Virus record (IMG/VR): IMGVR_UViG_3300000350_000001
Location: 1-27,175 of that record
Reading direction: 5' to 3' (one strand)
DNA: 27,175 nt
Source: a virus
Shown: piece by piece, positions 4,590 to 17,684 of the stretch
How positions within the stretch are numbered: position 1 is the stretch's first letter
How the letters are laid out: the number at the start of each line of letters is the position of its first letter
Translations under genes and position numbers: made by a program
The notes under the pieces: model-generated
What the model was told of the DNA's origin: nothing
Database searches by the model: none
Seen by the model: only the letters and a program-made list of their open reading frames with translations

Positions 4590-4647
4590 GGATAGTCTTT
4601 AGTTGGTAAGCGGGATACCCCGGTAAGTTCGAACCTTACACTATTCT
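4590..4647 (+). ncRNA. tRNA-like structure TLS0 with reduced anticodon arm
   Basis: 7-bp acceptor GGATAGT (4590-4596) with ACTATTC (4640-4646; one G-U pair); 3-bp D-like stem CTT (4597-4599) with AAG (4608-4610) around TAGTTGGT, a D-loop-like sequence; mini-hairpin CGGG-ATAC-CCCG (4611-4622) where the anticodon arm would be; then a canonical T-arm, GTAAG-TTCGAAC-CTTAC (4623-4639). The T-loop fits TTCRANY. There is no 7-nt anticodon loop, so it cannot decode. No CCA is encoded, as is normal in haloarchaea. It ends the large structured region and lies 49 nt before ATG 4696. Probable substrate for tRNase Z and/or RNase P. Confidence 0.75.
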
Positions 4648-4677
4648 TTGCGGTGTGGTATAGGGCGGTAAATAAAC

Positions 4678-4695
4678 GACCAAGAACTAAGACCT
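4678..4695 (+). promoter_or_regulatory. Degenerate leader motif before the 336-aa gene
   Basis: GACCAAGAACTAAGACCT ends immediately before ATG 4696. It matches the first ten bases of the consensus GACCAAGAACATTCGACC and then diverges. Confidence 0.45.
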
Positions 4696-5706
4696 ATGCT
4701 AAGTTTTGACATAGACACAGACGACAGTACAAACACGGAAAACAATGCGGAAACCCGGAAAGAAGGTGTGGATTTCATAGAATACAACGGTGTTGAATAT
4801 GAAAATTTCATCGAATGCAGTGACGGCGAAAAGGTTCCAAAAATCGACGACCGAATGGAATCAGCGGAAAAATACCGGTTGGCTGTCGTCCTGAATTACA
4901 AATTAGGTCCGGAAATCGGAAATTCCGAATTCACATCGAAAGCCTACAAAAAGGGATCTGACGCATTTCCAAATGAGGCTATAGGCCAATTTGAAGGCAT
5001 GGAAAACCACGAGGACATTTCACTGGAAAAGGCATTCTCGAAAGGCCATTACTACTACAGAGAAATGGGTAATGGAAAAATCAAATCGGTGATGAAAGAC
5101 GCATTCCATGCTGAATGTGAAAAGCTCGGAGTTCCTAAGAATCTCGAAGTCTACAAGCGGAATTTCCCGGTTGCTCAAAACTGGATTACCGGCGATGATA
5201 TGGTAACAATTGAGGAAAACGACGAAAAACCGTGGGAAAACATTCAGATTCCACAGGAATGGGTGAATGAATACGGTGGATTGCCACAAGTTGTCATGGA
5301 TGAATCGGAATTGGAATCGGAACCCGAACCAGAAACCACGAATTCCGGTGCAAAACTGAATGTCCCTGACGAATTCGAAGACGAATACAAGAATACGACC
5401 AAAGACCGCGATAAAATGCGAATTCTGCTCAAATGCAACCCGGAATTCGCCAAGCTGGAAAAGAAAGACAAAGTGGAAATCTTCACCTCGGCACCATTCG
5501 AATTCGGTCAGTCGAATGTCTACGGTGTTCTGAAAGAATGGAATGAGGAAAAAGAGGAATCGGAATCCGAACCAGAACCCGAACCAGAACCGGAAACAAC
5601 CGAGAATGGCGATTCTGATACCGTCGAGATCGACGCTGGTGAATTGGCCGATCTCCGAATGAAGGCACAGAAATACGACGAGATTCAGGCGGCACTCAAC
5701 TTCTAA
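4696..5706 (+). CDS. Acidic protein of unknown function with EPEPE linkers
   Basis: 336 residues, first gene of the plus-strand array. Seen: a hydrophilic N-terminus, a central folded-looking region (about 60-200), an acidic linker with ESELESEPEPE (about 203-213), a compact segment (about 220-285), a second Glu-Pro-rich linker (about 287-303) and a C-terminal helical segment. Codons strongly favour GAA and AAT and many codons end in AATTC, like the following small genes. The ATG follows TLS0 by 49 nt and is preceded by a degenerate leader motif. I do not recognise a domain. Its position and size would suit an abundant nucleic-acid-binding or structural accessory protein, but that is a guess. 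Confidence 0.75.
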   Translation: MLSFDIDTDDSTNTENNAETRKEGVDFIEYNGVEYENFIECSDGEKVPKIDDRMESAEKYRLAVVLNYKLGPEIGNSEFTSKAYKKGSDAFPNEAIGQFEGMENHEDISLEKAFSKGHYYYREMGNGKIKSVMKDAFHAECEKLGVPKNLEVYKRNFPVAQNWITGDDMVTIEENDEKPWENIQIPQEWVNEYGGLPQVVMDESELESEPEPETTNSGAKLNVPDEFEDEYKNTTKDRDKMRILLKCNPEFAKLEKKDKVEIFTSAPFEFGQSNVYGVLKEWNEEKEESESEPEPEPEPETTENGDSDTVEIDAGELADLRMKAQKYDEIQAALNF

Positions 5707-5708
5707 AA

Positions 5709-5867
5709 ATGTACGGAAACAACGCTTACGGATTCAACAGCGAAACCGGCGAGGCGAAAAGCTCGGACATTCAAGCCGACCGAACAACCAGAGACGAACG
5801 AGATTCCGACGAGGAATGGAATCCTGACGAGGAAACATGGAAACAATTCATGGCGAGGACTCAATAG
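5709..5867 (+). CDS. Small acidic protein (52 aa)
   Basis: ATG two bases after the previous stop. Sequence MYGNNAYGFNSETGEAKSS..., then an Arg/Asp/Glu-rich middle and WNPDEETWKQFMART near the end. No cysteines or membrane segment. Tight spacing and shared codon use support co-expression with the 336-aa gene. Function unknown. Confidence 0.6.
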   Translation: MYGNNAYGFNSETGEAKSSDIQADRTTRDERDSDEEWNPDEETWKQFMARTQ

Positions 5868-5898
5868 CTGAATAGCTAACAACATTCCACACTCTTTC

Positions 5899-5937
5899 GA
5901 CTGAATGGGCGGCTCGCGGTTCGATTCCGCGACAGTC
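5899..5937 (+). ncRNA. Minimal tRNA-like element TLS1
   Basis: Acceptor-like stem GACTG (5899-5903) with CAGTC (5933-5937); linker AATGGGCGGCT; T-stem CGCGG (5915-5919) with CCGCG (5927-5931); T-loop TTCGATT. D and anticodon arms are absent, but the linker keeps GG that could contact the T-loop as in a tRNA elbow. It lies between genes ending at 5867 and starting at 5998. A second hairpin, ATTCCAA/TTGGAAT, follows at about 5952-5972. Confidence 0.75.
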
Positions 5938-5979
5938 AATTTGTATAGCTCAATTCCAATTAGATTTGGAATCCGAACC

Positions 5980-5997
5980 GACCAGAACATTCGACCA
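5980..5997 (+). promoter_or_regulatory. Conserved leader motif, one-base deletion
   Basis: GACCAGAACATTCGACCA ends directly before ATG 5998. It helps place that start, since the reading frame is open farther upstream. Confidence 0.6.
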
Positions 5998-6300
5998 ATG
6001 GAAAGACATTCCATAGACCCAAACGACGTAGTACAGGAAATCAAACACGAATTCAATAACAATCCGGGCCTCGGAGAATCCGGAATCCGCGAATCGGTTG
6101 TGGAATTCCAAAACACGGATCTCCATAATCACGGATACCAAATCAAAAACTGCCCTCATTGTGGATACGACCGGGCCAAAGTTACCCACGACTACAATCC
6201 GGTGTTTCCAACTCCATTCGAATACGAATGCATGAATCCGAATTGTGGATGGAAAGAAAACGAGGAATTCAGCGATGAATTTGAGGATAAATACTGCTGA
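5998..6300 (+). CDS. Zinc-ribbon protein (100 aa)
   Basis: N-terminal half is helical and charged (DPNDVVQEIKHEF). The C-terminal half is a zinc ribbon: CPHCGYDRAKV, about 26 residues, then CMNPNCGWKE, and an acidic tail. The frame is open upstream to 5905, but ATG 5998 follows the conserved leader motif and is the better start. Zinc ribbons of this size usually bind nucleic acid or polymerase partners; the specific role is unknown. Confidence 0.75.
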   Translation: MERHSIDPNDVVQEIKHEFNNNPGLGESGIRESVVEFQNTDLHNHGYQIKNCPHCGYDRAKVTHDYNPVFPTPFEYECMNPNCGWKENEEFSDEFEDKYC

Positions 6301-6377
6301 TGATTACAGAAATCGCCTTCTCAGTTGTTGCAATGCTGATTTCGCTTTGGTTGGCAAACAGAATGGCGGGATTATGA
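6300..6377 (+). CDS. Single-helix membrane peptide (25 aa)
   Basis: Starts in the stop of the zinc-ribbon gene (TGATG overlap). MITEIAFSVVAMLISLWLAN, then RMAGL: one hydrophobic helix spanning nearly the whole peptide with a positive end. It recurs as a type with the peptides at 10073 and 18770. Translation is inferred from the tight overlap and from the next gene starting directly after its stop. Confidence 0.5.
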   Translation: MITEIAFSVVAMLISLWLANRMAGL

Positions 6378-6497
6378 ATGGCGGGCTGTCATTATTGCTC
6401 TGGAACTGACGCCGATCTCCGGCCATTCCATAAAATGAACAACGGCTACGTAATGTACAAACTGAAATGCGGAAAATGCGGGAGATTACAACCATGA
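6378..6497 (+). CDS. Mini zinc ribbon (39 aa)
   Basis: ATG abuts the previous stop. MAGCHYCSG... then KLKCGKCGRLQP: two CxxC knuckles about 26 residues apart, a complete minimal zinc ribbon and nothing else. Possibly a nucleic-acid or protein-interaction module; function unknown. Confidence 0.65.
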   Translation: MAGCHYCSGTDADLRPFHKMNNGYVMYKLKCGKCGRLQP

Positions 6498-6598
6498 TTG
6501 ACGGAAACCGATACGGAAATGTGCTGGAATCGAGCGGCGAATACGAACTGGAATTCCTTTACGATGATAGGGATGTAACACTGGAACCCGAATTATGA
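6494..6598 (+). CDS. Small protein (34 aa)
   Basis: Overlaps its neighbours by 4 nt on both sides (ATGA). MIDGNRYGNVLESSGEYELEF then an acidic end. No cysteines. The double overlap is the main evidence that it is a gene. Confidence 0.55.
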   Translation: MIDGNRYGNVLESSGEYELEFLYDDRDVTLEPEL

Positions 6599-6699
6599 AA
6601 TGTTTGGATTGTGGTCATGATGAATTCGGACAATTCGCTGACCCAAACAATCCGAAAGTGGCACTGTCATACTGTAAAAAATGCGGCGAGGTTCAATAA
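6595..6699 (+). CDS. Mini zinc ribbon (34 aa)
   Basis: ATGA overlap with the preceding gene. MKCLDCGHDEFG... SYCKKCGEVQ: CxxC, about 20 residues, CxxC. A bare zinc ribbon like those at 6378 and 10664. Function unknown. Confidence 0.65.
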   Translation: MKCLDCGHDEFGQFADPNNPKVALSYCKKCGEVQ

Positions 6700-6932
6700 T
6701 GAGCAAAGCACTAAAAGACCTGAAAGAATGGGCGGAATCGAGCAGTCGAATTGAAACAGCAGAAATGAGAGAAGGGACATTACATTTGATTGGACGAGAT
6801 TCCGATATGCCATTCGGGTTTTGGCAAAAACTGAACAACAGCGACGATCTCGGAATTTACAATACCTACGGAATTACGGTTGATGGAATTCCGAAAGTAG
6901 AACACATCGTAATTGATTGGGAAGGAAACTAA
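6699..6932 (+). CDS. Hypothetical protein (77 aa)
   Basis: ATG shares one base with the preceding stop (TAATG). An N-terminal amphipathic helix (MSKALKDLKEWAESSSRIE) is followed by beta-like segments and HIVIDWEGN at the end. The frame is open to 6681, but the overlap start is preferred. No known domain recognised. Confidence 0.7.
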   Translation: MSKALKDLKEWAESSSRIETAEMREGTLHLIGRDSDMPFGFWQKLNNSDDLGIYNTYGITVDGIPKVEHIVIDWEGN

Positions 6933-7147
6933 TGGGAATTTACGACGATGAATGGCGGTCGAAACCGGCGGGGTATTACGCTGATAACAAAGTCAAAAAC
7001 CGATTCCACAAACGACAGCGAGAAGAACAAGAATTCAGAAAGCTCGTCGAGGAAATTCTGGAACGAATGGGATACGAAACCCACGAGATTCCGGAACCCG
7101 AAGACGTGAAAGAAGCGGAAAACAAAGCACGAGAGATCCTACAATGA
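6932..7147 (+). CDS. Hypothetical charged helical protein (71 aa)
   Basis: TAATG overlap with the preceding gene. Rich in Lys, Arg and Glu, with a probable long helix at about residues 20-46 (NKVKNRFHKRQREEQEFRKL and onward) and a second C-terminal helix. No cysteines or membrane segment. Possibly an oligomeric or adaptor protein. Unrecognised. Confidence 0.7.
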   Translation: MGIYDDEWRSKPAGYYADNKVKNRFHKRQREEQEFRKLVEEILERMGYETHEIPEPEDVKEAENKAREILQ

Positions 7148-7365
7148 GCAAAACTTGGGAAGAAGTTGTCAACATCGCAATGGGAGAAACGTATTACAGC
7201 TATCAGAATCGGAATCCGACACAAGAAGAATTCGTAGAAACCTTCATGGAGTTTTACAACGAAGAAATCGCAACAACCAGAATCCTGAGTTGGCCTGTTG
7301 ACCCTCCGAGTTCTCACAGAATGGCAAAAGGGAGGGCAACAGTAGAATACGCTGACGAATTCTGA
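7144..7365 (+). CDS. Hypothetical protein (73 aa)
   Basis: ATGA overlap with the previous gene; last gene before the TLS2 leader. MSKTWEEVVNIAMGETYYSY, a helical middle with EEFVETFMEFYNEE, then a proline-containing tail. Unrecognised. Confidence 0.7.
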   Translation: MSKTWEEVVNIAMGETYYSYQNRNPTQEEFVETFMEFYNEEIATTRILSWPVDPPSSHRMAKGRATVEYADEF

Positions 7366-7383
7366 CAACCTCCTTCACTTTTC

Positions 7384-7424
7384 GGACTGATTGGTATAAT
7401 TGGAGTTCGATTCTCCAACAGTCC
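7384..7424 (+). ncRNA. Minimal tRNA-like element TLS2
   Basis: Acceptor-like stem GGACTG (7384-7389) with CAGTCC (7419-7424), with an A-A mismatch at the position of pair 7; linker TTGGTATAAT, which resembles a D-loop; T-stem TGGAG (7401-7405) with CTCCA (7413-7417); T-loop TTCGATT. It starts 18 nt after the preceding stop. It is followed by a perfect 8-bp hairpin TTCACAAC/GTTGTGAA (7426-7433 with 7441-7448). Confidence 0.8.
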
Positions 7425-7462
7425 ATTCACAACCTGACCAGTTGTGAACGTTAGCAGTACCA

Positions 7463-7517
7463 TACAGCTACCGTTAACAGTATGATAAGCTGTACTTGTT
7501 AACAGCAAGAAGGCGGC
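7463..7517 (+). repeat. Repeat element E2 with inverted repeat
   Basis: TACAGCT (7463-7469) pairs with AGCTGTA (7488-7494). GTTAAC occurs at 7473-7478 and 7498-7503, followed by AGCAAGAAGGCGG. This matches elements at 2083-2117 and 15931-15962. It lies in the leader of the gene at 7536. Confidence 0.55.
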
Positions 7518-7535
7518 TTATTACAGGATGTAACA

Positions 7536-7856
7536 ATGTCCGTTCAAGAACATTCGACAGGCTTTGAGACGAATCGCCCACTGCTTCCAAACAACCCTTC
7601 GGAATACATTCCGACCGATCACTTCATGGATAACAAGAAATGGCGGCACATTTCCGGTGAAATCATTCGGGAAGTGATCGAGACAGGAATCGTCAAACCT
7701 GCAAAGGATGGCTGTTACAAATTCGTGAAAATCGTTAACGGATTTGAATGGTGGTTCGTGGTGAAACACATTCCCGGCGACAAAAACAAGCTAATTACAG
7801 CTTACATTCCGGAATTTATGGACGACAAGGAGAAATACGACAGATACATCAAATAA
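7536..7856 (+). CDS. Hypothetical protein, DUF4258/BrnT-like fold possible
   Basis: 106 residues. The part after about residue 37 reads like a small ribonuclease-toxin-type fold: helix HISGEIIREVIETG, then strands with KIVNGFEWWFVVKH and KLITAYIPEF, a pattern seen in DUF4258 and BrnT-like proteins. No antitoxin partner is evident next to it. The conserved leader motif falls inside the first codons (7543-7560), unlike other genes, so translation could instead start at ATG 7626 (76 aa). Family call is weak. Confidence 0.6.
   Translation: MSVQEHSTGFETNRPLLPNNPSEYIPTDHFMDNKKWRHISGEIIREVIETGIVKPAKDGCYKFVKIVNGFEWWFVVKHIPGDKNKLITAYIPEFMDDKEKYDRYIK
7543..7560 (+). promoter_or_regulatory. Conserved leader motif, here overlapping a gene start
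   Basis: TTCAAGAACATTCGACAG. It lies 7 nt inside the open frame that begins at 7536, whereas other copies end 0-7 nt before the start codon, which casts doubt on the 7536 start. Confidence 0.5.
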
Positions 7857-7880
7857 CATTCGCTGAATCAAACCGATACA

Positions 7881-7916
7881 GATATATCAACACACCGTGT
7901 CTGTAAAAGAGGGAAG
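7881..7916 (+). promoter_or_regulatory. Promoter P4 (TATA plus conserved initial transcribed sequence)
   Basis: TATA-like GATATATC at 7881 with GTAAAAGAGGGAAG at 7903, the same 22-nt offset as in promoters P1, P2 and P3. The AAAGAGGGAAG segment (7906-7916) can pair with CTTCTCTCTTT (7944-7954) over 11 bp with one G-U, so the transcript would begin with a strong hairpin before the gene at 7976. Confidence 0.55.
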
Positions 7917-7960
7917 TCCGGAACTGACCAATCCGAAAGACCAGCTTCTCTCTTTGATTG

Positions 7961-7975
7961 CGGAACATTCGACCC
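7961..7975 (+). promoter_or_regulatory. Conserved leader motif, short form
   Basis: CGGAACATTCGACCC ends immediately before ATG 7976 and supports that start over the upstream in-frame start at 7958. Confidence 0.5.
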
Positions 7976-8281
7976 ATGACATTCGACGAACGAAAACACC
8001 TACACAAATCAGCAGTATCGCTCGCAAATAAACTCGAAGACGAATCCACGACGGTTTCCGACATTGAGCCATTCGATATTACAGTAGAAACCACAATCGA
8101 CGGACGGATTACTGAAATTCGATTGGCCGATGGACAAGGACCACACACAGAAATCGAACTCGGAAGCGAAATGATTGCGGCTTACAGTCATGGTGAATCT
8201 GTTCGTGTTCATTTCGACAATTCGGAACTGGCCGATGAGCTGTGGAATTACTACACCGATCTGTACGAGGACAACCAATGA
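7976..8281 (+). CDS. Hypothetical acidic protein (101 aa)
   Basis: N-terminal helix (MTFDERKHLHKSAVSLANKL), then an alternating beta-like region (PFDITVETTIDGRITEIRLA, HTEIELG, SVRVHF) and a C-terminal helix. Start chosen at the ATG right after the leader motif. First gene of a four-gene overlapping set that includes the SprT-like protein. Unrecognised. Confidence 0.7.
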   Translation: MTFDERKHLHKSAVSLANKLEDESTTVSDIEPFDITVETTIDGRITEIRLADGQGPHTEIELGSEMIAAYSHGESVRVHFDNSELADELWNYYTDLYEDNQ

Positions 8282-8382
8282 ACATTCTTGAAATCGCAAT
8301 CCGAGAAGTGGAAAACGAACAATCGACCGAAGAAGACCCTAACGTGGAAGTCACAAAAAACGGAAACTACGTGGTACAATGA
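8278..8382 (+). CDS. Small acidic protein (34 aa)
   Basis: ATGA overlaps at both ends. MNILEIAIREVENEQSTEED then VEVTKNGNYVVQ. A short helix plus a beta hairpin is possible. Accepted because of the two-sided overlap. Confidence 0.55.
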   Translation: MNILEIAIREVENEQSTEEDPNVEVTKNGNYVVQ

Positions 8383-9002
8383 GCCTTACATTCAAAATCC
8401 CCGGATACGATTCCAACCTGAATCCAATTCAAAAAACGGAATCGAGTTACGATCCAGATAAGATTATTCCTGAAACAGACGAAAACGACGAGCCTCAATT
8501 CGACGATAACATGATTAAAGCTGAATTGGAAGCCGCAATTCAGTTGTATTCAGAATGGGCAGTCGAAAATCTCGAACCGCTGTCCGAAGTGGATCTGGAA
8601 AACGTGGAGATCGAGGTCGGCAGTATGAAACGCCAAGCTGGAAAAGCAATGGCGAGAGGTTCGAAAGACAATCTGAATCTGACCACGAAATACTCATACA
8701 GAGCTTACGACAAATGGGGTTGGGAGAAATTCACTTCCACAATTCGGCACGAACTGATCCACATTTGGCAAATGCAGAAGCTCGGAGAATGGGACCACGG
8801 CCCGAGCTTCAAAGCGAAAGCCCGAAAACTGGATTGCTCTGTGAAATGTGAGAACTTCCACGACGAATACAAATACGAATTGTACTGCCAAGAATGTGGA
8901 GATTTCATAGCTGGTCGCCACAAGAAATCGAAGACCGTCAAATACCCCGGAGCTTACAATTCCAAATGTTGCGGTGCCCCATTGAGAGTTGAACACAAAT
9001 GA
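8379..9002 (+). CDS. SprT-like zinc metalloprotease
   Basis: 207 residues. Zincin signature HELIH (124-128), third ligand in DHGPSFK (H140), then a C-terminal zinc ribbon (C170-x2-C173 and C197-C198). This order, HExxH, then H-G-x-x-F, then a four-cysteine ribbon, is that of the SprT/SPRTN family; the eukaryotic members cleave DNA-protein crosslinks during replication. An N-terminal extension of about 40 acidic residues is extra. In a virus it might remove proteins trapped on DNA or process virion proteins. Joined by ATGA overlaps to genes on both sides. Family call is strong; substrate unknown. Confidence 0.85.
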   Translation: MSLTFKIPGYDSNLNPIQKTESSYDPDKIIPETDENDEPQFDDNMIKAELEAAIQLYSEWAVENLEPLSEVDLENVEIEVGSMKRQAGKAMARGSKDNLNLTTKYSYRAYDKWGWEKFTSTIRHELIHIWQMQKLGEWDHGPSFKAKARKLDCSVKCENFHDEYKYELYCQECGDFIAGRHKKSKTVKYPGAYNSKCCGAPLRVEHK

Positions 9003-9202
9003 TACACATAACCACAGACGGAATGATCTGCGAAAAAACCGAAAACCACCCTGCTCGATTCCGACAATTCGGCGGCAGTGAGGTTGGATTTACAGGCGAA
9101 CTACACGAAATCACGCTGGACATTGTGTTCCAACATTGCACGAATCCGCCGCTCGGGTTGGTTCAAGTGAATGGAGAAAGTCTACTGGCATTCTCAACGT
9201 AG
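8999..9202 (+). CDS. Hypothetical protein (67 aa)
   Basis: ATGA overlap with the SprT-like gene. Beta-rich pattern (MIHITTDGMIC, EVGFTGELHEITLDIVF, LGLVQVNGESLLAF) with isolated cysteines but no zinc motif. Ends 41 nt before TLS3. Unrecognised. Confidence 0.65.
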   Translation: MIHITTDGMICEKTENHPARFRQFGGSEVGFTGELHEITLDIVFQHCTNPPLGLVQVNGESLLAFST

Positions 9203-9220
9203 CCTCGTTCTCGCCGTTTG
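9202..9220 (-). repeat. E-type repeat core, reverse orientation (E5)
   Basis: The minus strand reads CAAACGGCGAGAACGAGGC, matching the core of E1 and the inverted copy just before the tRNA at 17438. It lies 23 nt upstream of TLS3. Confidence 0.45.
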
Positions 9221-9243
9221 CAATCTTCATTTCTAATGCGGTT

Positions 9244-9282
9244 CCCCGATTGGTATAACTCTGGTTCGATTCCAGATCGGGG
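9244..9282 (+). ncRNA. Minimal tRNA-like element TLS3
   Basis: Stem CCCCGA (9244-9249) with TCGGGG (9277-9282); linker TTGGTATAAC, identical to TLS2 in nine of ten bases; T-stem TCTGG (9260-9264) with CCAGA (9272-9276); T-loop TTCGATT. Here the two stems stack without any intervening base. It lies 48 nt before ATG 9331. Stem sequences differ from TLS2 while loop and linker are kept, as expected if the RNA fold is selected. Confidence 0.82.
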
Positions 9283-9306
9283 TCTTCGGTGTGGAATAGC
9301 GAGATT

Positions 9307-9324
9307 GACCAAGAACATTCGACC
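9307..9324 (+). promoter_or_regulatory. Conserved leader motif
   Basis: GACCAAGAACATTCGACC, a perfect consensus copy, 6 nt before ATG 9331. Confidence 0.6.
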
Positions 9325-9330
9325 AAAAAC

Positions 9331-10062
9331 ATGAGTGTCTACAAACAGAAACCGACCAAGGAATTCACGTACCGAGTCCACATTGACGACGACCGAGCAA
9401 TGCGGAAAGTTAACCGGCTTCAGTCGCTCGATTCCGGGTATGACATTACGAAAATCCCCAAACAGAAAGTCCCAAACGGAAATGCTGTCAAGCATTGGAA
9501 CTACGTTTTCTACCGAAGCAAAGAGATCCGCGATCTCCACGGAAACGTAACCGGCGGAACGATCCCCGGTTTCCATAAATACCGCTACTCGCTGGAATGG
9601 GAACGAACCCCGGAAAGCGAGCTTCTGGAAATGAGACACGCAAACGTTGGCGGAACCAGAATCAAAGGCGAAGCATTTGTCGGAACCCATGACCCACGGA
9701 TTTCCGATTACGTGGAAGTGAATACAGTAGTTCCGTGGACTCCGAAAGAAATCAAGGAGATGTTTAACGGCGAGAAGGTGTCCGATAAGGTGAATTACAG
9801 CTACGATCCACCAATGATCGAAGCGAAAGAAGCCCGCGAGGAATACCGGAAGATCATCGAACAGGCGAAAGACGACGGATTCCGGAAAGCAATGGCCGAT
9901 CTCCACGAATTCATGGAGAATTGCGACCACGACCACGTTGTTCTAACTGGACGTGAATACGGCGACGTTGCCTATTGTGAAGATTGCGGAAAGCAATGGG
10001 ACAGCGACGAATTCGAACACGACAAAGAGAATGACGAGCTAACAGTCGTTGGGTATTTCTGA
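9331..10062 (+). CDS. Hypothetical protein (243 aa)
   Basis: Basic and beta-rich N-terminal half (MSVYKQKPTKEFTYRVHIDD, HWNYVFYRSKEIR), a middle helix rich in Glu and Lys (about 160-200), and a C-terminal segment with H and C residues (NCDHDHVVLTG, VAYCEDCGKQW) that may form a small zinc site. The frame is open upstream to 9289, but ATG 9331 follows the leader motif. No domain recognised. It is the first and largest gene of its segment, so it may be the main product of the TLS3-led mRNA. Confidence 0.75.
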   Translation: MSVYKQKPTKEFTYRVHIDDDRAMRKVNRLQSLDSGYDITKIPKQKVPNGNAVKHWNYVFYRSKEIRDLHGNVTGGTIPGFHKYRYSLEWERTPESELLEMRHANVGGTRIKGEAFVGTHDPRISDYVEVNTVVPWTPKEIKEMFNGEKVSDKVNYSYDPPMIEAKEAREEYRKIIEQAKDDGFRKAMADLHEFMENCDHDHVVLTGREYGDVAYCEDCGKQWDSDEFEHDKENDELTVVGYF

Positions 10063-10181: not shown

Positions 10182-10667
10182 ATGAGTCAAACACTACACG
10201 AAAATCGAACCCGAATGGAGAGAGACATTCAACTAATCGAAGAAAATCCATACTATCCAAACGAAACACCCGGTGTTCCAAATACGGAAATGCGGTGGAG
10301 AAGTCATTATGAAATTGAAGAATGGAGTTACGATCAAGGATACGATTGTGGGGTTTCCGAGCTGTGGAAAATCCTTCCGACAGATATTGTGAAAGATATT
10401 GGAATGGTCTTCATTCGAGAAGGACCGGAAGCCGCTGAGGTAGTCATGGAAGAAGAAATAACGCAAACAGTTGACGTTATCACCAATGAATATCTATCAT
10501 CCTATGTTGACGGTCAAATGAGACTGGTCGCCGGATATGATGTGGCCGAGAATGGTGATACATTGGGAGAAGGTGATTACGGAATTTGGGAAGACCTTCG
10601 AATCATGTGGGAAGCCGGATTCCGTGATAAACTCCGAGGAGACGAGAGATATTCAAGTATCTCATGA
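10182..10667 (+). CDS. Hypothetical acidic protein (161 aa)
   Basis: Mostly helical, very acidic, with aromatic clusters (NPYYPNETP, EMRWRSHYEIEEWSYDQGYD) and FIREGPEAAEVVMEEE in the middle. No cysteine motif or P-loop. Next gene starts in its stop codon (ATGA). Unrecognised. Confidence 0.72.
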   Translation: MSQTLHENRTRMERDIQLIEENPYYPNETPGVPNTEMRWRSHYEIEEWSYDQGYDCGVSELWKILPTDIVKDIGMVFIREGPEAAEVVMEEEITQTVDVITNEYLSSYVDGQMRLVAGYDVAENGDTLGEGDYGIWEDLRIMWEAGFRDKLRGDERYSSIS

Positions 10668-10892: not shown

Positions 10893-10934
10893 CTCTGACT
10901 GGTAGTTAACTCGGAATTCAATTTTCCGACAGAG
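10893..10934 (+). ncRNA. Minimal tRNA-like element TLS4
   Basis: Stem CTCTG (10893-10897) with CAGAG (10930-10934); linker ACTGGTAGTTAAC; T-stem CGGAA (10912-10916) with TTCCG (10924-10928), extended by a T-A pair; T-loop TTCAATT, the A variant of the TTCRANY consensus. It lies 62 nt before ATG 10997, with small hairpins between. Confidence 0.75.
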
Positions 10935-10996: not shown

Positions 10997-11359
10997 ATGT
11001 CAAGCGCAACTGCAAACAATGACGACGGCGAGCGACAGATTCCAGAACACATCATTCGAGAGCTTCGAGAAAGTGGAGCAAGCGATCTGTTCCTGAAAGT
11101 CATTCAGACTCCAACCAGTGAGGTTCCCGGTGTTGAACGAAACTCGGCCCGTCAAGAAGTCCTGAAATACATGGATTGGGGTGCAAGTTCCAACAAAAAC
11201 GTCTCTAACTACCTCCATTACGGTGGTGGATACTTCCAGAGTCTCTACAATGGAAACCCGGACGCTCACGCCGATCCCAACAACGTGAAAATCCTAAACC
11301 ACGTTCGACAGGGAACTTCAACCGGGCCACAAAACCTTCTCACCGGAGAATCATTGTGA
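10997..11359 (+). CDS. Hypothetical protein (120 aa)
   Basis: Helical N-terminal half (IPEHIIRELRESGASDLFLKV) and a Gly/Asn/Tyr-rich C-terminal half (NYLHYGGGYFQSLYNGNPD). No recognised domain. Start selected by the leader motif. Its stop is overlapped by the GTG of the next gene. Confidence 0.72.
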   Translation: MSSATANNDDGERQIPEHIIRELRESGASDLFLKVIQTPTSEVPGVERNSARQEVLKYMDWGASSNKNVSNYLHYGGGYFQSLYNGNPDAHADPNNVKILNHVRQGTSTGPQNLLTGESL

Positions 11360-12463: not shown

Positions 12464-12474
12464 GTTAAACTACA

Positions 12475-12987: not shown

Positions 12988-13007
12988 GAATTAACCCCTA
13001 AAGTTCC

Positions 13008-13029: not shown

Positions 13030-13053
13030 AACGGCTAATCGGAAATTGTCAAA

Positions 13054-13086
13054 CCGGCTTCAGTCACATTCGGGTGATTGAGCCGG
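13054..13086 (+). ncRNA. Leader hairpin resembling a TLS without linker
   Basis: CCGGCT (13054-13059) pairs with AGCCGG (13081-13086), and CAGTCAC (13061-13067) with GTGATTG (13074-13080, one G-U), leaving T13060 bulged and loop ATTCGG. It occupies the TLS position of other leaders but lacks the linker and true T-loop, so it may be a degenerate or functional substitute. A second hairpin, TGACTG/CAGTCA, follows before the leader motif. Confidence 0.55.
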
Positions 13087-13112
13087 GGCAACGTCTGACT
13101 GTGCGTTAATCA

Positions 13113-13130
13113 GTCAAGAACATTCGACCA
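13113..13130 (+). promoter_or_regulatory. Conserved leader motif
   Basis: GTCAAGAACATTCGACCA ends immediately before ATG 13131. Confidence 0.6.
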
Positions 13131-13592
13131 ATGGCTTCAAACTATCCGCCCGGAGTGTCAGCTAACACTCGAAATGCACCGTGGAATCAACCCGACCCCG
13201 CCGACCGAGAAGTGGTTGACGTGGAAGATGAACTAATACTGGAAGATGAAGCGGCGATCTTCTATCGAACTACGTATTTGGCATACGTAGTCGGAGTTCA
13301 TCAAGGGTACAGAGAAACGATTACAGAATACGGACCAGAAGATTCGGAAACAGAAGCGATCCGTCTTGATGTTGACCGAGTAATTGTCCGGCGAGAAGGT
13401 CAGCCCGACATAACATATTTGGCAAGCTCGGATGATTTCGAATACTTGTTCGACACCGCAATCAATGAAGTGGAAGTGGAGTTCATGAATGATGAAATAG
13501 CCACGATTATTGATTGTGACCCGCCAAATAATCGAGACGACGGATTCGTGAGTGCAAAAGCAAACGAATATGAGGTTTGGTATACCCAATAG
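13131..13592 (+). CDS. Hypothetical acidic protein (153 aa)
   Basis: Starts MASNYPPGVSANTRNAPWNQ, a proline-rich N-terminus of a kind I associate with short haloarchaeal and haloviral proteins. The middle is strand-rich (ETEAIRLDVDRVIVRREGQ) and the end carries DCDPPNNRDDG. No catalytic motif. First gene of a six-to-seven-gene overlapping segment running to 14917. Confidence 0.72.
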   Translation: MASNYPPGVSANTRNAPWNQPDPADREVVDVEDELILEDEAAIFYRTTYLAYVVGVHQGYRETITEYGPEDSETEAIRLDVDRVIVRREGQPDITYLASSDDFEYLFDTAINEVEVEFMNDEIATIIDCDPPNNRDDGFVSAKANEYEVWYTQ

Positions 13593-13598
13593 ATTCTG

Positions 13599-13874
13599 AT
13601 GAGTCTAAAATCAACAGCGTTTGTTCTCCTAATTTTTGGTGCATTGTTGTTCAGCGTCGGATTCACGATTGACCAAGACTACCAAGAATGGGAAGACAAC
13701 AGAGATCAATTGAAAAGTGAATGTCTGTCAATGTATACAACTTGGCAATCGTGTAGTCACATCGACAACTTGGAAAATCCAAACGACAGTGGTGGTCCAT
13801 ACATGAACTTTGGATTTGGTCTGATAGGAGTTGGAATGATACTGTTAATATACGATGAATGGGATTTAACGTGA
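13599..13874 (+). CDS. Two-helix membrane protein (91 aa)
   Basis: Hydrophobic helix at residues 5-24 (STAFVLLIFGALLFSVGF), a polar loop with two cysteines (ECLSMYTTWQSC, possibly disulfide-linked outside the cell), and a second helix at about 68-84 (FGFGLIGVGMILLIY). Positive residues are few, so topology is uncertain. Possibly an envelope or host-membrane modifying protein. Confidence 0.7.
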   Translation: MSLKSTAFVLLIFGALLFSVGFTIDQDYQEWEDNRDQLKSECLSMYTTWQSCSHIDNLENPNDSGGPYMNFGFGLIGVGMILLIYDEWDLT

Positions 13875-14062
13875 GACAACCACCGCCAAATAATAAACCG
13901 TGCCCGGAATGTGATAGTCTCGATACAGAAAAAATAACAGAAGAAGTCGAATACGGTTCTCCGGTAAATTGGAACAGTAGAGGGTTGCAAGCTCCTCGGT
14001 ATAAAACAAAAACGCTGAGTTACTACTATTGTAATCAGTGTGACTGGAACGAAAAATACTAA
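13859..14062 (+). CDS. Zinc-ribbon protein (67 aa)
   Basis: PCPECDSLDTEKI, about 38 residues, then YYCNQCDWNEKY: a zinc ribbon with a long insert containing SPVNWNSRGLQAP. ATG 13859 overlaps the membrane gene by 16 nt. GTG 13871 would give the 4-nt GTGA overlap typical of this array and is a good alternative. Confidence 0.68.
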   Translation: MGFNVRQPPPNNKPCPECDSLDTEKITEEVEYGSPVNWNSRGLQAPRYKTKTLSYYYCNQCDWNEKY

Positions 14063-14361
14063 TGATTCAACAAAAAAAGAAAACAGCAATAGAAACATTC
14101 GTAGATAATCTAAAAAAATACGGAATCCACGACGATTATATACAGATAGAAGATTACTTCGATGGAACCGGGAAGGTCTACCTTCACGCAAACAAAAGCG
14201 GTTGGGGAATACCGTCTGATTGCTACGATGATGTTGACGCTCGGTTAATAGAATCATGTAGCATGAAAGCACTCGGAAAAAACCACTGGATGAAAGAGGA
14301 AAATCGTGACCACGTTTTAATATTCAGTGTTACCTACAAAGAAAACAATGACGCTAACTGA
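14062..14361 (+). CDS. Hypothetical protein (99 aa)
   Basis: TAATG overlap. Basic N-terminus (MIQQKKKTAIETFVDNLKKY), then IEDYFDGTGKVYLHANKSGW and a C-terminal strand VLIFSVTYKEN. Unrecognised. Confidence 0.65.
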   Translation: MIQQKKKTAIETFVDNLKKYGIHDDYIQIEDYFDGTGKVYLHANKSGWGIPSDCYDDVDARLIESCSMKALGKNHWMKEENRDHVLIFSVTYKENNDAN

Positions 14362-14494
14362 ATTCGGCTACTGTCCAAAGTGCGACATTGACCGCGTAGA
14401 ACTAACACCATTCGACGGCGGGATTCTCGGCTGTCACAAGTGCGGGAATCTCTCTGTATACAACAACAAAAATGAGTACGAACAACAACAGTAG
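14348..14494 (+). CDS. Mini zinc ribbon (48 aa)
   Basis: Overlaps the previous gene by 14 nt and the next by 23 nt. FGYCPKCDIDRVEL... LGCHKCGNLSVY: two CxxC pairs 17 residues apart, then a polar Asn/Gln tail. Typical free-standing ribbon. Confidence 0.6.
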   Translation: MTLTEFGYCPKCDIDRVELTPFDGGILGCHKCGNLSVYNNKNEYEQQQ

Positions 14495-14711
14495 AGTACC
14501 ACAACCCGGCGATCTTCTGGAATTTTTTGACGGAGAAGGATTCGTGTCGGGAACGATGATGGATACTGGAAAAGACGAGAGAGGCAGTCACTATGTTCTA
14601 CAGGTTGGAAACAACCGACAACGTGTTCACTATCAGGATGTAGTAGCCATTCTCAAAACCAAGGAACAGCGAAGCGACGTTCCATTGTTAGAAGAACGAT
14701 TCAGCAAATGA
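14472..14711 (+). CDS. Hypothetical small beta-barrel-like protein (79 aa)
   Basis: PQPGDLLEFFDGEGFVSGTM, then SHYVLQVGNNRQRVHYQDVV reads like a small SH3-like or Tudor-like barrel, with a charged helical tail. No catalytic motif. Unrecognised beyond that. Confidence 0.62.
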   Translation: MSTNNNSRVPQPGDLLEFFDGEGFVSGTMMDTGKDERGSHYVLQVGNNRQRVHYQDVVAILKTKEQRSDVPLLEERFSK

Positions 14712-14917
14712 ATTATATAAAAGTAAAAGTTGACGACGTAGCTAATGCTCTCGAAAAAAATTACAGATCAATCCCATATCATCAGGAAGATGGGGTTTGG
14801 TTTGTGAATTCCGAGAACGTTGATGGAAAAGAAGGGATGAGGCAATACGCAGGTCCAAAAGCAAAGGAGCGCGATCTGCGTCAATTGTTGCTAAAAGAGT
14901 ACGACATTCGCTATTGA
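14708..14917 (+). CDS. Hypothetical protein (69 aa)
   Basis: ATGA overlap. MNYIKVKVDDVANALEKNYR then HQEDGVWFVNSEN and a basic helix (GPKAKERDLRQLLLKEYDIR). Last gene of the array. Its end overlaps the convergent ERCC4-type gene by 7 nt. Confidence 0.65.
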   Translation: MNYIKVKVDDVANALEKNYRSIPYHQEDGVWFVNSENVDGKEGMRQYAGPKAKERDLRQLLLKEYDIRY

Positions 14918-15363
14918 TATTTCTCGTACCAATTTTGAAGCAGTTGATGTGTTCGGGCTTTCGCTCCGGCCCGATCTCCGGCCCATTCAAATTCGAGAAC
15001 GTCGTATTTATCGGGCCACTTCTCAACTGTTCCAATAATTGAGTTCGGATGAATTTTAGAATAGTAGTGAATGCAGTGACCACGACCGTCTCGATCATAC
15101 AGCATAGATTTCTCAGCTTCAATGACAACAACAAATTCTTCAAAGTTTTGGGCACGTTGGATTTCACGTTCAAACCGTTCTCGACCGGCACCGAGTGTGT
15201 TAGCGAGATCATCAAGGGACTTACGTTCGACGGCGAATACGCCTTCGAATCCTTCAATGGTATAATCACCAGTCTCAAGACCGGTGCGAATTACGTCCGT
15301 ATCGTAGAATGAGTACGGTTTCTTCTCACGACTATCAATAACAACGACCGGTTCTACGGTCAT
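14911..15363 (-). CDS. ERCC4-type (XPF/Mus81-like) nuclease
   Basis: 150 residues, essentially one nuclease domain. Seen: VVVIDSREKKPY (D10), TGDYTI (32-36), and the signature VERKSLDDL (ERK at 46-48, D at 51), the active site of XPF, Mus81 and Hef nucleases, which cut branched or flap DNA. No helicase or helix-hairpin-helix domain is attached, so a partner may supply DNA binding. ATGA overlap with the upstream cyclin-like gene shows co-translation. Likely role: resolving replication or recombination intermediates, or trimming ends before packaging. Confidence 0.88.
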   Translation of the reverse strand: MTVEPVVVIDSREKKPYSFYDTDVIRTGLETGDYTIEGFEGVFAVERKSLDDLANTLGAGRERFEREIQRAQNFEEFVVVIEAEKSMLYDRDGRGHCIHYYSKIHPNSIIGTVEKWPDKYDVLEFEWAGDRAGAKARTHQLLQNWYEKYQ

Positions 15364-15851
15364 AGAATATCCTCAACGCGGTTTAAATATCCATGAATTT
15401 CAGAAACATTCCAATTAAATTCGTCTGCAACCTTTACAAACAATTCACAGTTGTTCTCGTCCTTACGACGTGGGTGGTATACCCTCTCGGAACGGGTGTC
15501 CTCTCTAACAACGTGAGAGGCCACACAGAAGCACGCAAGAAACAGACGCCCCCCAAGTCGTCGAAGGTCAATATCTTCGATCAGGCGGCGTCCTTCGGCT
15601 TTCTGGTAGTCAGTTAGATCAAGATTGTTTTCACCAGCAATGGCGTCCCATGAAGCGAGTCGATCTTGAAGACGAGATGTAGCTTCATCCCGATTCCCGA
15701 ATGAGTCGGCGGCTCCGGTGTTTACAAGCGAAAGACGTTTCCATTTGTATGGGTCGTCGGAAGGGTTAGTCCCTTCAAAAGCATGAAATTTAGTATTATT
15801 TTCAGTATCCAATTCAGTCAGCGGTTCACTTTCAGATTCATCATATGGCAT
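15360..15851 (-). CDS. Possible cyclin-fold (TFB-core-like) protein
   Basis: 163 residues. After an acidic N-terminus (MPYDESESEPLTELD), the C-terminal about 100 residues follow the helical pattern of a TFIIB/TFB cyclin repeat: RLASWDAIAGENNLDLTDYQ, then a GGRLFLACFCVASHVV core helix, then a helix pair ending WNVSEIHGYLNRVEDIL. TFB core repeats have a comparable helix, Ala/Cys-rich core helix and recognition-helix order. No zinc ribbon is attached. If real, it could redirect host RNA polymerase. Evidence is pattern-level only. Confidence 0.5.
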   Translation of the reverse strand: MPYDESESEPLTELDTENNTKFHAFEGTNPSDDPYKWKRLSLVNTGAADSFGNRDEATSRLQDRLASWDAIAGENNLDLTDYQKAEGRRLIEDIDLRRLGGRLFLACFCVASHVVREDTRSERVYHPRRKDENNCELFVKVADEFNWNVSEIHGYLNRVEDIL

Positions 15852-15890
15852 ATATAATCAAATATTATACAAAGAGGAGAACAGTACCAG

Positions 15891-15930
15891 TACAGTATAG
15901 TACAGTATAGTACAGTATAGTACAGTACAG
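15891..15930. repeat. Tandem 10-bp repeats (TACAGTATAG)
   Basis: Three exact copies of TACAGTATAG at 15891-15920 and a partial fourth (TACAGTACAG). The period matches one DNA helical turn, so bound proteins would line up on one face. Iteron-like or operator array. Confidence 0.75.
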
Positions 15931-15962
15931 TAACAGTATAGTTGTTAACAGCAAGAAGGTGT
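15931..15962 (+). repeat. Repeat element E3
   Basis: TAACAGTATAGTTGTTAACA then GCAAGAAGGTG: nearly identical to E1 (2084-2117) and related to E2 (7473-7517). Confidence 0.6.
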
Positions 15963-16029
15963 CCTATAATGGATATACAGATAACATCTATACTGTTGTT
16001 ATAGATAACAGTAACAGTATAGTACAACT

Positions 16030-16063
16030 CCCCTCTTTAACAGAGGTGGGGTGATAATATAAA
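16030..16063 (-). promoter_or_regulatory. Promoter P2 (TATA plus conserved initial transcribed sequence)
   Basis: The minus strand reads AGATTTATATT, with TTTATA starting at 16063, and GTTAAAGAGGGG starting at 16041, exactly 22 nt later. It matches P1 closely from the bases before the TATA box through GTTAAAGAGGG. It would drive the cyclin-like/ERCC4 operon with a leader of about 190 nt that includes E3 and the tandem repeats. Confidence 0.65.
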
Positions 16064-16078
16064 TCTATCGGTACAAAC

Positions 16079-16086
16079 TATAAATA
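16079..16086 (+). promoter_or_regulatory. TATA box of the LAGLIDADG-like gene
   Basis: TATAAATA starts 31 nt upstream of ATG 16110 and 19 nt upstream of ATG 16098. This favours 16110 as the translated start on a very short leader. Confidence 0.5.
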
Positions 16087-16109
16087 CCCATGATACAATG
16101 GTAGCTATA

Positions 16110-16619
16110 ATGAGCGATAACGCAGATGAGTTGAATCAGCAGATCGAAGAAGAAATGACAAAAGCGTACATTGGCGGCCTGATGGACGGCTCCGGTACGG
16201 TTGTAGCCCAAGTTCGAAAAGACGACGATTACGCTCTTGGATATACAATTCAAACTCGTATACAACTTGTTCGCAAGAAGCCATTCTCTATCCAGATGAT
16301 TGACGACTGGACCGCAAAGAACGGTATCTATGCAACAATCCGGCAGTACGAGGAAAAGTATGAATTTGAGATTAGTCGATTGCGAGACGTGTCCATGTTT
16401 TGTGAAAAAATGGCTCCGTATGTTCAAGATCGGCTCTACGAATTTGAGCTAATGTCTGAGGAAATCATTCCCCGAATGAAAGAGGAAGTTCATCTCTCAG
16501 ATGAAGAAGGATTCGTTGAAGTTGTGGAGCTGATCGACGAACTCCGAGAGGAAAGTATCTCACCAATTGGGAATACGAAATACACAGCAGAATACTTTAA
16601 GGACTTATGGGACTTATAA
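16110..16619 (+). CDS. LAGLIDADG-like homing-endonuclease-family protein
   Basis: 169 residues from ATG 16110 (ATG 16098 adds four). AYIGGLMDGSGTV (about 19-31) matches the LAGLIDADG helix with the acidic catalytic position, followed by a predicted beta-beta-alpha pattern (YTIQTRIQLVRKKPFSIQMI, YEKY-type strands) as in single-motif homodimeric enzymes. The C-terminal 60 residues are acidic and helical. It is free-standing, not inside an obvious intron or intein in this window. It may be an active selfish endonuclease or a domesticated DNA-binding regulator; WhiA-type proteins show the latter occurs. Confidence 0.72.
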   Translation: MSDNADELNQQIEEEMTKAYIGGLMDGSGTVVAQVRKDDDYALGYTIQTRIQLVRKKPFSIQMIDDWTAKNGIYATIRQYEEKYEFEISRLRDVSMFCEKMAPYVQDRLYEFELMSEEIIPRMKEEVHLSDEEGFVEVVELIDELREESISPIGNTKYTAEYFKDLWDL

Positions 16620-16621
16620 AA

Positions 16622-17263
16622 TTAGAACGAATACGTTTCGAATTCTTTCTGTTCGTTGTACATTTCAACTCCTTCTCTAAAATCCTCATCCGAGCAAGAG
16701 AAGATGTTCTTAACGCGATTTGGTTCCTCTTGCATTTGAGGGTAGATTGAAAACAATGTAGCAATTTGCTCTGCTACATCATCTGAAACATTGTGAACTG
16801 GTCGGTTGATATTGTCAGTCACAATCTTACCCCGGTTTCGACGGCGTTCTTGCAGTTTATAGATTTGTTCTAAATCCATGAAGGGGTTCCAATCATCATC
16901 ACAAGGAATCAATGTGTACTCCTGATCTTCGATAGAAGCACCTTCCGGGTGTAGAATGTCACCCTTGGATTTACTAATGTGAATTTTGTAGCCACGTTCT
17001 CCCTTACAAAGCTGGTTACACCAGTTGCAAAGATAGAGATGATTGGTGGCTTTCTTTGATTTTGATTTAGATACGTTGAACTTCTGGTTTTTGTTAATCG
17101 GCTTCAAGCTACTAACATCGAAATCCTCTGGAACTTCAATGTGGGGGCCGTGTCCACCACCAACACTCCGTAGTACGTGGGTGTATATTCCTTGAGAAGA
17201 ACAAATCTTCCCACAGTAAGGACATTCCTTCTTTTCATCTTGGTCGGTGTCACTGGCAGACAT
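16622..17263 (-). CDS. C2H2-type zinc-finger protein (213 aa)
   Basis: Two Cys/His clusters: CPYCGKICSSQGIYTHVLRS...H (about 14-41) and LCNWCNQLCKGERGYKIHIS...H (about 78-106). Both have CxxC followed by histidines at 11-20 residues, an enlarged C2H2 finger. A basic linker (KSKSKKATN) separates them; the rest is acidic. Likely a viral DNA- or RNA-binding regulator. It is transcribed away from the replication module from a TATA-like TTTAATA about 34 nt upstream, and is convergent with the LAGLIDADG-like gene. Confidence 0.75.
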   Translation of the reverse strand: MSASDTDQDEKKECPYCGKICSSQGIYTHVLRSVGGGHGPHIEVPEDFDVSSLKPINKNQKFNVSKSKSKKATNHLYLCNWCNQLCKGERGYKIHISKSKGDILHPEGASIEDQEYTLIPCDDDWNPFMDLEQIYKLQERRRNRGKIVTDNINRPVHNVSDDVAEQIATLFSIYPQMQEEPNRVKNIFSCSDEDFREGVEMYNEQKEFETYSF

Positions 17264-17293
17264 TGTACTATATTAATGTAGTAAACTAAACTC

Positions 17294-17301
17294 TATTAAA
17301 T
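17294..17301 (-). promoter_or_regulatory. TATA-like element of the zinc-finger gene
   Basis: Minus-strand ATTTAATA about 34 nt upstream of ATG 17263, consistent with a short leader. Confidence 0.4.
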
Positions 17302-17368
17302 ATTTCTCAAGTTTTTCCAAAGGTTTTTATTATCCATCATATTCAGACATAGGGGGTATATCGGTAGA

Positions 17369-17403
17369 TTTATATTGTTACCACTCGTTTGTTAAAGAGG
17401 GAA
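17369..17403 (+). promoter_or_regulatory. Promoter P1 of the tRNA/replication transcript
   Basis: TTTATATT at 17369 and GTTAAAGAGGGAAG at 17391, the 22-nt offset of the family. The initial sequence can fold, with CGTTT (17386-17390) against AAGCG (17402-17406). Downstream lie the tRNA, the hairpin cluster, TLS5 and the replication genes. Confidence 0.65.
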
Positions 17404-17417
17404 GCGGTGTTTTAGAA

Positions 17418-17437
17418 GCCCCCGTTCTCGCTGTTTA
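17418..17437 (-). repeat. E-type repeat core, reverse orientation (E4)
   Basis: The minus strand reads TAAACAGCGAGAACGGGGGC, matching E1 and E5 cores. It abuts the 5' end of the tRNA gene exactly. Confidence 0.5.
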
Positions 17438-17511
17438 GGATTTATAGCTCAATCAGGTAGAGCGCACTGCTCATAACGGTGTGGTTCGGGGTTCGAGTCC
17501 CTGTAGATCCA
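17438..17511 (+). tRNA. tRNA with CAT anticodon (Met elongator or Ile2)
   Basis: Full cloverleaf: acceptor GGATTTA (17438-17444) with TAGATCC (17504-17510), one G-U; D-stem GCTC/GAGC with D-loop AATCAGGTA; anticodon stem CACTG/CGGTG with loop CTCATAA (17470-17476, anticodon CAT at 17472-17474); variable loop TGGTT; T-stem CGGGG/CCCTG, loop TTCGAGT; discriminator A17511; no encoded CCA. A CAT anticodon reads AUG, or AUA if C34 is modified as in archaeal tRNA-Ile2; I cannot tell which from the sequence. It probably supplements host decoding of viral codons. Confidence 0.92.
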
Positions 17512-17512
17512 C

Positions 17513-17639
17513 TTCGGGCATAAGGGTCGCCCGAACGGATATTGCTTCCACAAAAGTAATGCAAGCTCCGCTACGGAGCAATGGTACTACGCTACGTAGG
17601 TTTCTCGCAAGGGACAGCCTCGGCTTTACACCGGGGCTG
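17513..17639 (+). ncRNA. Row of five hairpins between tRNA and TLS5
   Basis: TTCGGGC/GCCCGAA (17513-17519, 17529-17535); ATTGCTT/AAGTAAT (17541-17547, 17554-17560, one G-U); GCTCCG/CGGAGC (17565-17570, 17574-17579); CTACG/CGTAG (17587-17591, 17595-17599); CAGCCTCGG/CCGGGGCTG (17615-17623, 17631-17639, one U-G) with 7-nt loop CTTTACA. Almost every base is in or next to a stem, and there is no reading frame of note. The last hairpin resembles an anticodon arm, but no matching cloverleaf exists. Probably a structured spacer or small RNA co-transcribed with the tRNA. Confidence 0.65.
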
Positions 17640-17642
17640 AAA

Positions 17643-17684
17643 GCACCCAATGGTGGTCAGGGAGGTTCGATTCCTTCCGGGTGC
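17643..17684 (+). ncRNA. Minimal tRNA-like element TLS5
   Basis: Stem GCACCC (17643-17648) with GGGTGC (17679-17684), with an A-C mismatch at pair 7; linker ATGGTGGTCAG; T-stem GGAGG (17661-17665) with CCTTC (17673-17677), one G-U; T-loop TTCGATT. Same architecture as TLS1-4. It lies 105 nt before ATG 17790 and downstream of a real tRNA on the same transcript. Confidence 0.8.

Follow-up and report, generated by a model that had tools for sequence, protein, structure and literature searches.

Putative t-Elements Between the Genes of Haloarchaeal Tailed Viruses

Introduction

By what signal might a haloarchaeal virus divide its long transcripts into shorter mRNAs? The question is raised by a 27-kb virus record of 46% GC (IMG/VR record IMGVR_UViG_3300000350_000001, positions 1 to 27,175; this whole stretch is referred to as the window), in which an initial annotation described six non-coding, tRNA-like sites, each placed upstream of a protein-coding gene. 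For the haloarchaeal virus HF2, long transcripts were detected by reverse transcription PCR but Northern bands were mostly of 1–2.5 kb, and the authors proposed processing, leaving its signal unnamed (PMC8707807). Based on comparison with related viruses and with haloarchaeal genomes, we consider it likely that the sites in the window are natural t-elements (mini-tRNAs) situated between the cistrons of long viral transcripts, where they would be cut by host tRNase Z and perhaps also by RNase P. The t-element itself is known; its use by viruses between protein genes, and by host surface-protein operons, is new. Under this reading, the shortening of long polycistronic transcripts in haloarchaeal viruses would have a signal, a likely enzyme, and product ends that can be predicted exactly.

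Six Sites in the Viral Window

We scanned the whole window with a strict descriptor consisting of an acceptor stem of at least 5 bp, a linker of 7–16 nt containing GG, a 5-bp T-stem, and a loop matching TTCRANY. It returned exactly the five short sites of the initial annotation (sites 2 to 6 in Table 1), all on the + strand, and no match on the − strand, whereas dinucleotide shuffles gave 0.015 and 0.010 matches per strand. Site 1 has a 26-nt linker and was missed by this descriptor; a long-linker version found this site and otherwise just the tRNA-Met at 17438, with 0.007 matches expected per window. All six sites are therefore real features of the sequence, as first described, with site 1 as the least typical and weakest member. 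It keeps extra arms, being made up of a 7-bp acceptor, a D-arm-like and a very short anticodon-like part, a 5-bp T-stem, and the loop TTCGAAC, and its thermodynamic fold has no preference for the T-arm. The 5-bp T-stem that had been attributed to all six sites needs correction for four of them, in which it has 6 bp (acceptor and T-stem together 11–12 bp); it stands for the others.

None of the six sites was scored as a tRNA by ARAGORN or by Rfam RF00005, and only 17438–17512 was called in the window. No Rfam family reported the elements within the stretches scanned, and Hammerhead_II (RF02276) had no match in the window at E ≤ 5. A match to Plastid-ycf2 5′UTR RNA (RF04354) was rejected, as it lay on the antisense strand and reached 26.7 bits against a gathering threshold of 65.7. 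Minimum-free-energy z-scores of single elements were weak, and the case is built on comparison rather than on energies.

For this comparison we used a covariance model (referred to as R1) made from 18 viral elements, with viral sequences only. Run without filters on the window, R1 gave 38.5–50.7 bits for the five short sites and at most 15.5 bits elsewhere (the T-arm of the tRNA-Met). Because these five sites belong to the training set, independent evidence comes from the descriptor scan and not from their scores.

Structure and Compensatory Changes

Most elements combine a 6-bp T-stem with a 5–6-bp acceptor, giving 11–12 bp in total compared to 7 + 5 = 12 bp in a tRNA. In nearly all of them the linker starts with A-N-Y-GG, with the GG about 3 nt past the acceptor, and the T-loop is TTCRANY. 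An acceptor-like stem stacked on a T-arm, with neither a D nor an anticodon arm, is also the form of the haloarchaeal t-element, from which site 1 departs.

In the 18 viral elements, 99% of base-pair cells hold standard pairs, versus 65% in shuffled controls, and pairing falls to 41–55% when the partner is slid by 1–3 columns. Changes on both sides are present in 12 of the 13 pairs. The initial annotation had taken the varying stems, next to a constant T-loop and GG, as a sign of selection on RNA structure, and these compensatory changes agree with it. Since the 18 elements had been selected with a descriptor in which pairing is required, and the covariation is drawn from related sequences, a stronger point is provided by one orthologous locus located before the same gene in haloferacalesviruses, where the acceptor is GCTCCG/CGGAGC, GCCCCG/CGGGGC or GCTCTG/CAGAGC depending on the virus.

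Occurrence in Related Viruses

Judging from its proteins, the window virus is a relative of Hafunaviridae, a family of haloarchaeal tailed viruses: its primase-like protein matches 53 halovirus records (approximately 37–41% identity in the best matches), and genes near the primase-like gene match PHROG families of terminase small subunit, exonuclease, and HNH endonuclease. R1 matches were found in the whole records of HF2, HCTV-8, HRTV-10, HJTV-1, HRTV-25, HRTV-27, HSTV-2, HRTV-7, and HRTV-11, which are all the isolated Hafunaviridae searched, as well as in three related contigs. A further 19 contigs, many of them fragments, encode a related primase, and 15 of these contain elements; one 31-kb contig has up to eight R1 matches.

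Outside the training set, R1 scored 50.1 bits in HCTV-2 and 54.1 bits in HHTV-2 (both Saparoviridae), and 33.8 bits in HFTV1 (Haloferuviridae). Another member of the latter family, HRTV-4, scored 26.6 bits and is backed by placement. As 0.87 Mb of control viral contigs chosen for tRNA-type T-arms reached a best R1 score of 31.4 bits, any score under about 32 bits had to be backed by placement and by a U at the 14th nucleotide past the T-loop (discussed below) to be accepted. Weak matches in HSTV-1 (inside a coding sequence) and HGTV-1 were left out of the counts. No R1 match was found in HVTV-1, HCTV-1, and HCTV-5 (Druskaviridae), or in phiCh1, HHTV-1, BJ1, HATV-2, and HATV-3. A first exact pattern scan of viral contigs gave three loci, none with a verified mini element at the match, and a second returned mostly contigs with ordinary tRNA T-arms and several haloviruses; it is the contigs from these scans that were used as the control for R1.

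Placement at Gene Boundaries

In related viral genomes the elements recovered by R1 recur at gene boundaries, with compensatory changes, nearly always between co-directional genes and sometimes 0–1 nt past the stop codon. Four of the five elements in HRTV-27 lie wholly outside annotated genes, compared to 4.8% of placements that are intergenic; three of these start 0 nt past the preceding gene and end 31–36 nt before the next, and the fourth is intergenic. The fifth is within the annotated 5′ part of gp109, the real start of which is probably further in. The two HF2 elements occupy two of the seven gaps of at least 40 nt, with 2.1% of placements being intergenic. In HRTV-4 the element begins directly after a stop codon, and in HFTV1 it is 1 nt past gp62 and 14 nt before gp63 (PCNA). 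Start codons have been annotated or called inside mini-tRNAs for gp109 in L010, gp109 in L009, gp106 in L007, and the window ORF (open reading frame) from 5905; the true starts of such genes are probably further downstream.

The distance of 48–111 nt from element to likely ATG that was noted for the window holds. So does the placement right after the previous gene for sites 2 to 5; a long ORF-free stretch precedes site 1, and the tRNA-Met plus a further ~130 nt precede site 6. With the window sites on the + strand only and the elements elsewhere at gene boundaries, the pattern is not one of random positions on either strand. Between the element and the ATG, a hairpin with a stem of at least 5 bp is present in 21 of 27 cases versus 8.2 in shuffles (there is none in HFTV1). 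At site 3, an 8-bp hairpin begins exactly at the predicted cut.

The Host 5S t-Element and the Register of the Predicted Cut

When R1 was run on seven haloarchaeal genomes, the best matches outside proviruses were in the 23S-5S spacer, with the 5S rRNA 3–4 nt past the matched part, and when 79 other genomes of the order were added, many of the top-scoring loci were again upstream of 5S. Host 23S-5S spacers scored about 25–45 bits, and 41–43 bits where the 5S gene directly follows. The spacer element of Halospeciosus reads CCGAC-ATTGGTAGGA-TCGCGG-TTCGATT-CCGCGA-GTCGG, its linker starting as in window sites 3 and 4. This spacer element is the host t-element that, according to Hoelzle et al. (2008), as cited in PMC3296008 and PMC4326828, is cleaved by tRNase Z in Hfx. 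volcanii to create the 5S 5′ end. The viral elements share with this t-element the 5 + 6 bp stems, the T-loop, the A-N-Y-GG linker start, and the U at the released 5′ end. Unlike the host element, which is part of the rRNA operon and releases an rRNA, they are located between protein genes, several per genome and often with a second hairpin after them, and their cleavage is predicted. In Haloferax, t-elements engineered on both sides of a crRNA (CRISPR RNA) free the crRNA in vivo (PMC4326828, PMC3296008). In these constructs too a t-element in a longer transcript frees the adjoining RNA, although they are synthetic and place it at both ends of one small RNA.

The initial annotation had pointed to organelles for precedent. 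In mitochondrial tRNA punctuation and in plant mitochondrial t-elements, tRNAs or tRNA-like structures between genes similarly direct RNase P and tRNase Z to make mRNA ends, but these are organellar systems of an unrelated lineage, with complete or differently shaped elements. The haloarchaeal 5S t-element, recovered by a model made from viruses only, is a closer precedent, and processing by host tRNA enzymes, as originally suggested, is the best-supported reading of the sequence.

The 14th nucleotide past the T-loop, which lies outside R1, is T in all six window sites. Among distinct viral elements it is T/U in 46 of 50, and the same holds for each of the 15 host 5S elements and each of the 11 elements in host leaders; as the elements are related to each other, these counts are not independent events. 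Nucleotides 13 and 15, unlike nucleotide 14, are mixed. In the host 5S elements, nucleotide 14 coincides, give or take one base, with the start of 5S (by Rfam boundary and alignment). The register is constant for 11- and 12-bp helices, as would be expected for an enzyme measuring from the T-loop. By sequence, the RNA released from a viral element would thus begin with U 14 nt past the T-loop, as for a haloarchaeal t-element. Among 27 tRNAs called in the same loci (two of which are the host 5S element itself), 19 have T and 8 have C at nucleotide 14; it is always T or C, so that the trailer rule for tRNase Z substrates is also obeyed by the viral elements.

The same mini-tRNA was also observed 14–26 nt before host genes encoding SipW-dependent-type (VWA or camelysin-like) or TafE-like fimbrial proteins (at about position 1500 in each of loci L250, L258, L261, L281, L284, L266, and L277). 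Several of these elements stand directly after a related gene of the same kind.

Hammerheads and Complete tRNAs in the Same Slot

Besides mini-tRNAs, HF2 (record L006) has a type II hammerhead at 10292–10359, between genes ending at 10290 and starting at 10371. Type II hammerheads are also present in HCTV-8, HRTV-10 (two), and HRTV-25, and a Halospeciosus provirus has one ~0.9 kb from a mini-tRNA; positions in related viruses and a provirus are listed in Table 1. Complete tRNAs also occur directly before genes in related viruses. The type II hammerhead (RF02276) of haloferacalesviruses is like the mini-tRNA in its slot after a stop codon and just before the next gene, and unlike it in having an unrelated fold and in being self-cleaving, with no host enzyme needed. 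The use of comparable slots by two unrelated RNA-cleavage elements suggests that cleavage is the job they share.

On balance, we lean towards the wider view that haloarchaea and their tailed viruses share mini-tRNA punctuation by tRNase Z, in viral operons and in host SipW-type/TafE-like operons, and that mini-tRNAs, complete tRNAs, and hammerheads are interchangeable viral cut sites. If so, tRNA punctuation, known from mitochondria, would be extended to archaeal viruses and host operons, and the 5S t-element would be one member of a wider class.

Proposed Function and Alternative Explanations

In the proposed mechanism, the 11–12-bp acceptor/T-stem helix would be capped by a tRNA T-loop, with the linker GG positioned where the D-loop GG of a tRNA would meet the T-loop. 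Host tRNase Z would measure from the T-loop and cut past the 13th nucleotide after it, so that the downstream mRNA would gain a defined 5′ end starting with U, often with a hairpin at once. RNase P may act at the 5′ side, which would leave the upstream mRNA ending at or near its stop codon. The virus may benefit through separate stability and expression of its gene modules.

What is observed is the structure with its covariation, the placement, a design identical to that of the 5S t-element in hosts, and a conserved U where the product would be expected to begin; cleavage at the viral sites, the enzymes, and the benefit are what we infer. Several points weigh against this mechanism. Covariation and U counts rest on related sequences, and the training set was pre-selected for pairing. 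A 2012 Biochimie study of Haloferax is said to have found many t-element-like structures by computer, those tested being uncut in vitro. In HF2, a 5′ end mapped by primer extension, T-4384, was assigned to a promoter by the authors (PMC8707807); it falls in the linker of the element at 4375–4414, 31 nt upstream of the predicted cut at 4415/4416. It may mark a promoter start inside the element, or it may be an RNA end that arose in some other way, and a local transcript that escapes cutting while read-through transcripts are cut would reconcile it with processing. RNA-seq coverage of HFTV1 was read as continuous through gp62–gp65, forming one early operon (PMC12542753).

T-4384, with a promoter motif upstream (PMC8707807), could belong to a structured 5′ leader that is made from a local promoter and stays uncut, serving stability or translation, perhaps with a tRNA-binding protein attached. 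Upstream of haloferacalesvirus elements there is a similar motif, AAAGACT, and the position of elements 14–110 nt before starts, often with the second hairpin counted above, would also fit such leaders. The HF2 intergenic repeats (PMC8707807) are comparable in that they too lie between genes and ahead of gene modules, within the same family of viruses, but they are DNA promoters with TATA boxes, lack conserved RNA stems, and occupy other positions. Uncut leaders are difficult to reconcile with the HRTV-27 and HRTV-4 elements that begin directly past a stop codon, with the HFTV1 element inside a reported operon (PMC12542753), and with a U at nucleotide 14 in exact register with the 5S 5′ end. 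Further, a start at T-4384 drops the 5′ strand of the acceptor, leaving the covarying stem without a role in that transcript, and we regard this explanation as unlikely.

The tRNA-like T-loop and elbow GG, and the many matches in the 31-kb contig, would suit decoys, i.e., excised or uncut mini-tRNAs that titrate tRNase Z, RNase P or tRNA-modifying enzymes during infection. Decoys need no fixed stop-to-start placement, however, and the same element serves hosts upstream of 5S rRNA and in operons for surface proteins, which makes this very improbable. We give slightly less credence still to decayed viral tRNA genes or attachment-site remnants: real tRNAs are nearby, and HF2 has a truncated tRNA-Thr attP (PMC8707807), but one linker design recurs across many loci and families, the window sites differ in sequence and are not scored as tRNAs, and decay is rejected by compensatory changes that preserve both stems. 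Finally, the 58 TTCRANY motifs on the + strand of the window could be flanked by chance inverted repeats, an origin refuted by the descriptor scan (five found versus 0.015 expected) and the recurrence in relatives, so that its probability is negligible. Cleavage by host tRNase Z at natural t-elements thus remains the reading that we prefer.

Other Features of the Window

The elements and neighboring features are listed in Table 1.

Table 1. Positions of mini-tRNAs, following genes, and other features in the window, and of type II hammerheads in related records.
Feature	Record	Positions	Strand	Description	Predicted cut
Site 1, tRNA-like	window	4590–4646	+	long-linker descriptor	tRNase Z, after 4647
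Gene after site 1	window	4696–5706	+		
Site 2, mini-tRNA	window	5899–5937	+	5 + 6 bp; linker AATGGGCGGC; 50.7 bits (training member)	after 5939
Gene after site 2	window	5998–6300	+	likely start 5998; ATG 5905 within element	
Site 3, mini-tRNA	window	7384–7424	+	6 + 6 bp; linker ATTGGTATAA	after 7425
Gene after site 3	window	7536–7856	+		
Site 4, mini-tRNA	window	9244–9282	+	6 + 5 bp; linker TTGGTATAAC	after 9284
Leader motif	window	9307–9326	+	GACCAAGAACATTCGACCAA; between site 4 and ATG 9331	
Gene after site 4	window	9331–10062	+	PHROG 19267	
Site 5, mini-tRNA	window	10893–10934	+	5 + 6 bp; loop TTCAATT	after 10936
Gene after site 5	window	10997–11359	+		
tRNA-Met (CAT)	window	17438–17512	+	complete, upstream of site 6; ARAGORN; Rfam 63.2 bits	
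Site 6, mini-tRNA	window	17643–17684	+	6 + 6 bp	after 17685
Gene after site 6	window	17790–18764	+	PHROG 12260	
Primase-like gene	window	20705–21877			
Type II hammerhead	L010	15499–15566			
Type II hammerhead	L011	14588–14653			
Type II hammerhead	L011	18729–18796			
Type II hammerhead	L007	10623–10696			
Type II hammerhead	L240	2456–2524			

A protein search of viral contigs with the gene after site 6 found no relative. The motif GACCAAGAACATTCGACC(A/G)A is repeated at 2204–2223, 9307–9326, and 13112–13131, with partial copies seen by eye before ATG 5998 and ATG 10997. At the third of these positions the gene boundary has the leader motif and no mini-tRNA, and a strong hairpin (z −4.6) is located at 13035–13110, possibly a processing or termination element of a different type.

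Nearly 2 kb just before the first rightward gene (2740–4690) lacks a credible ORF, and similar regions are present in HF2 and HSTV-2. Tested as structured RNA, the ORF-free part at 2740–4580 gave a mean z of about −0.6 to −0.8 versus shuffles, which offers no support for it, while the comparable region of HF2 folds better than its shuffles (z about −2.9). Three stretches around TTGTTAACRGCRAGAA, similar by eye, are located at about 2093–2130, 7497–7535, and 15940–15975, and are possibly promoter or replication repeats. A short tandem repeat array with the consensus AGTACAGTAT occupies 15881–15942, in the gap between two divergent genes.

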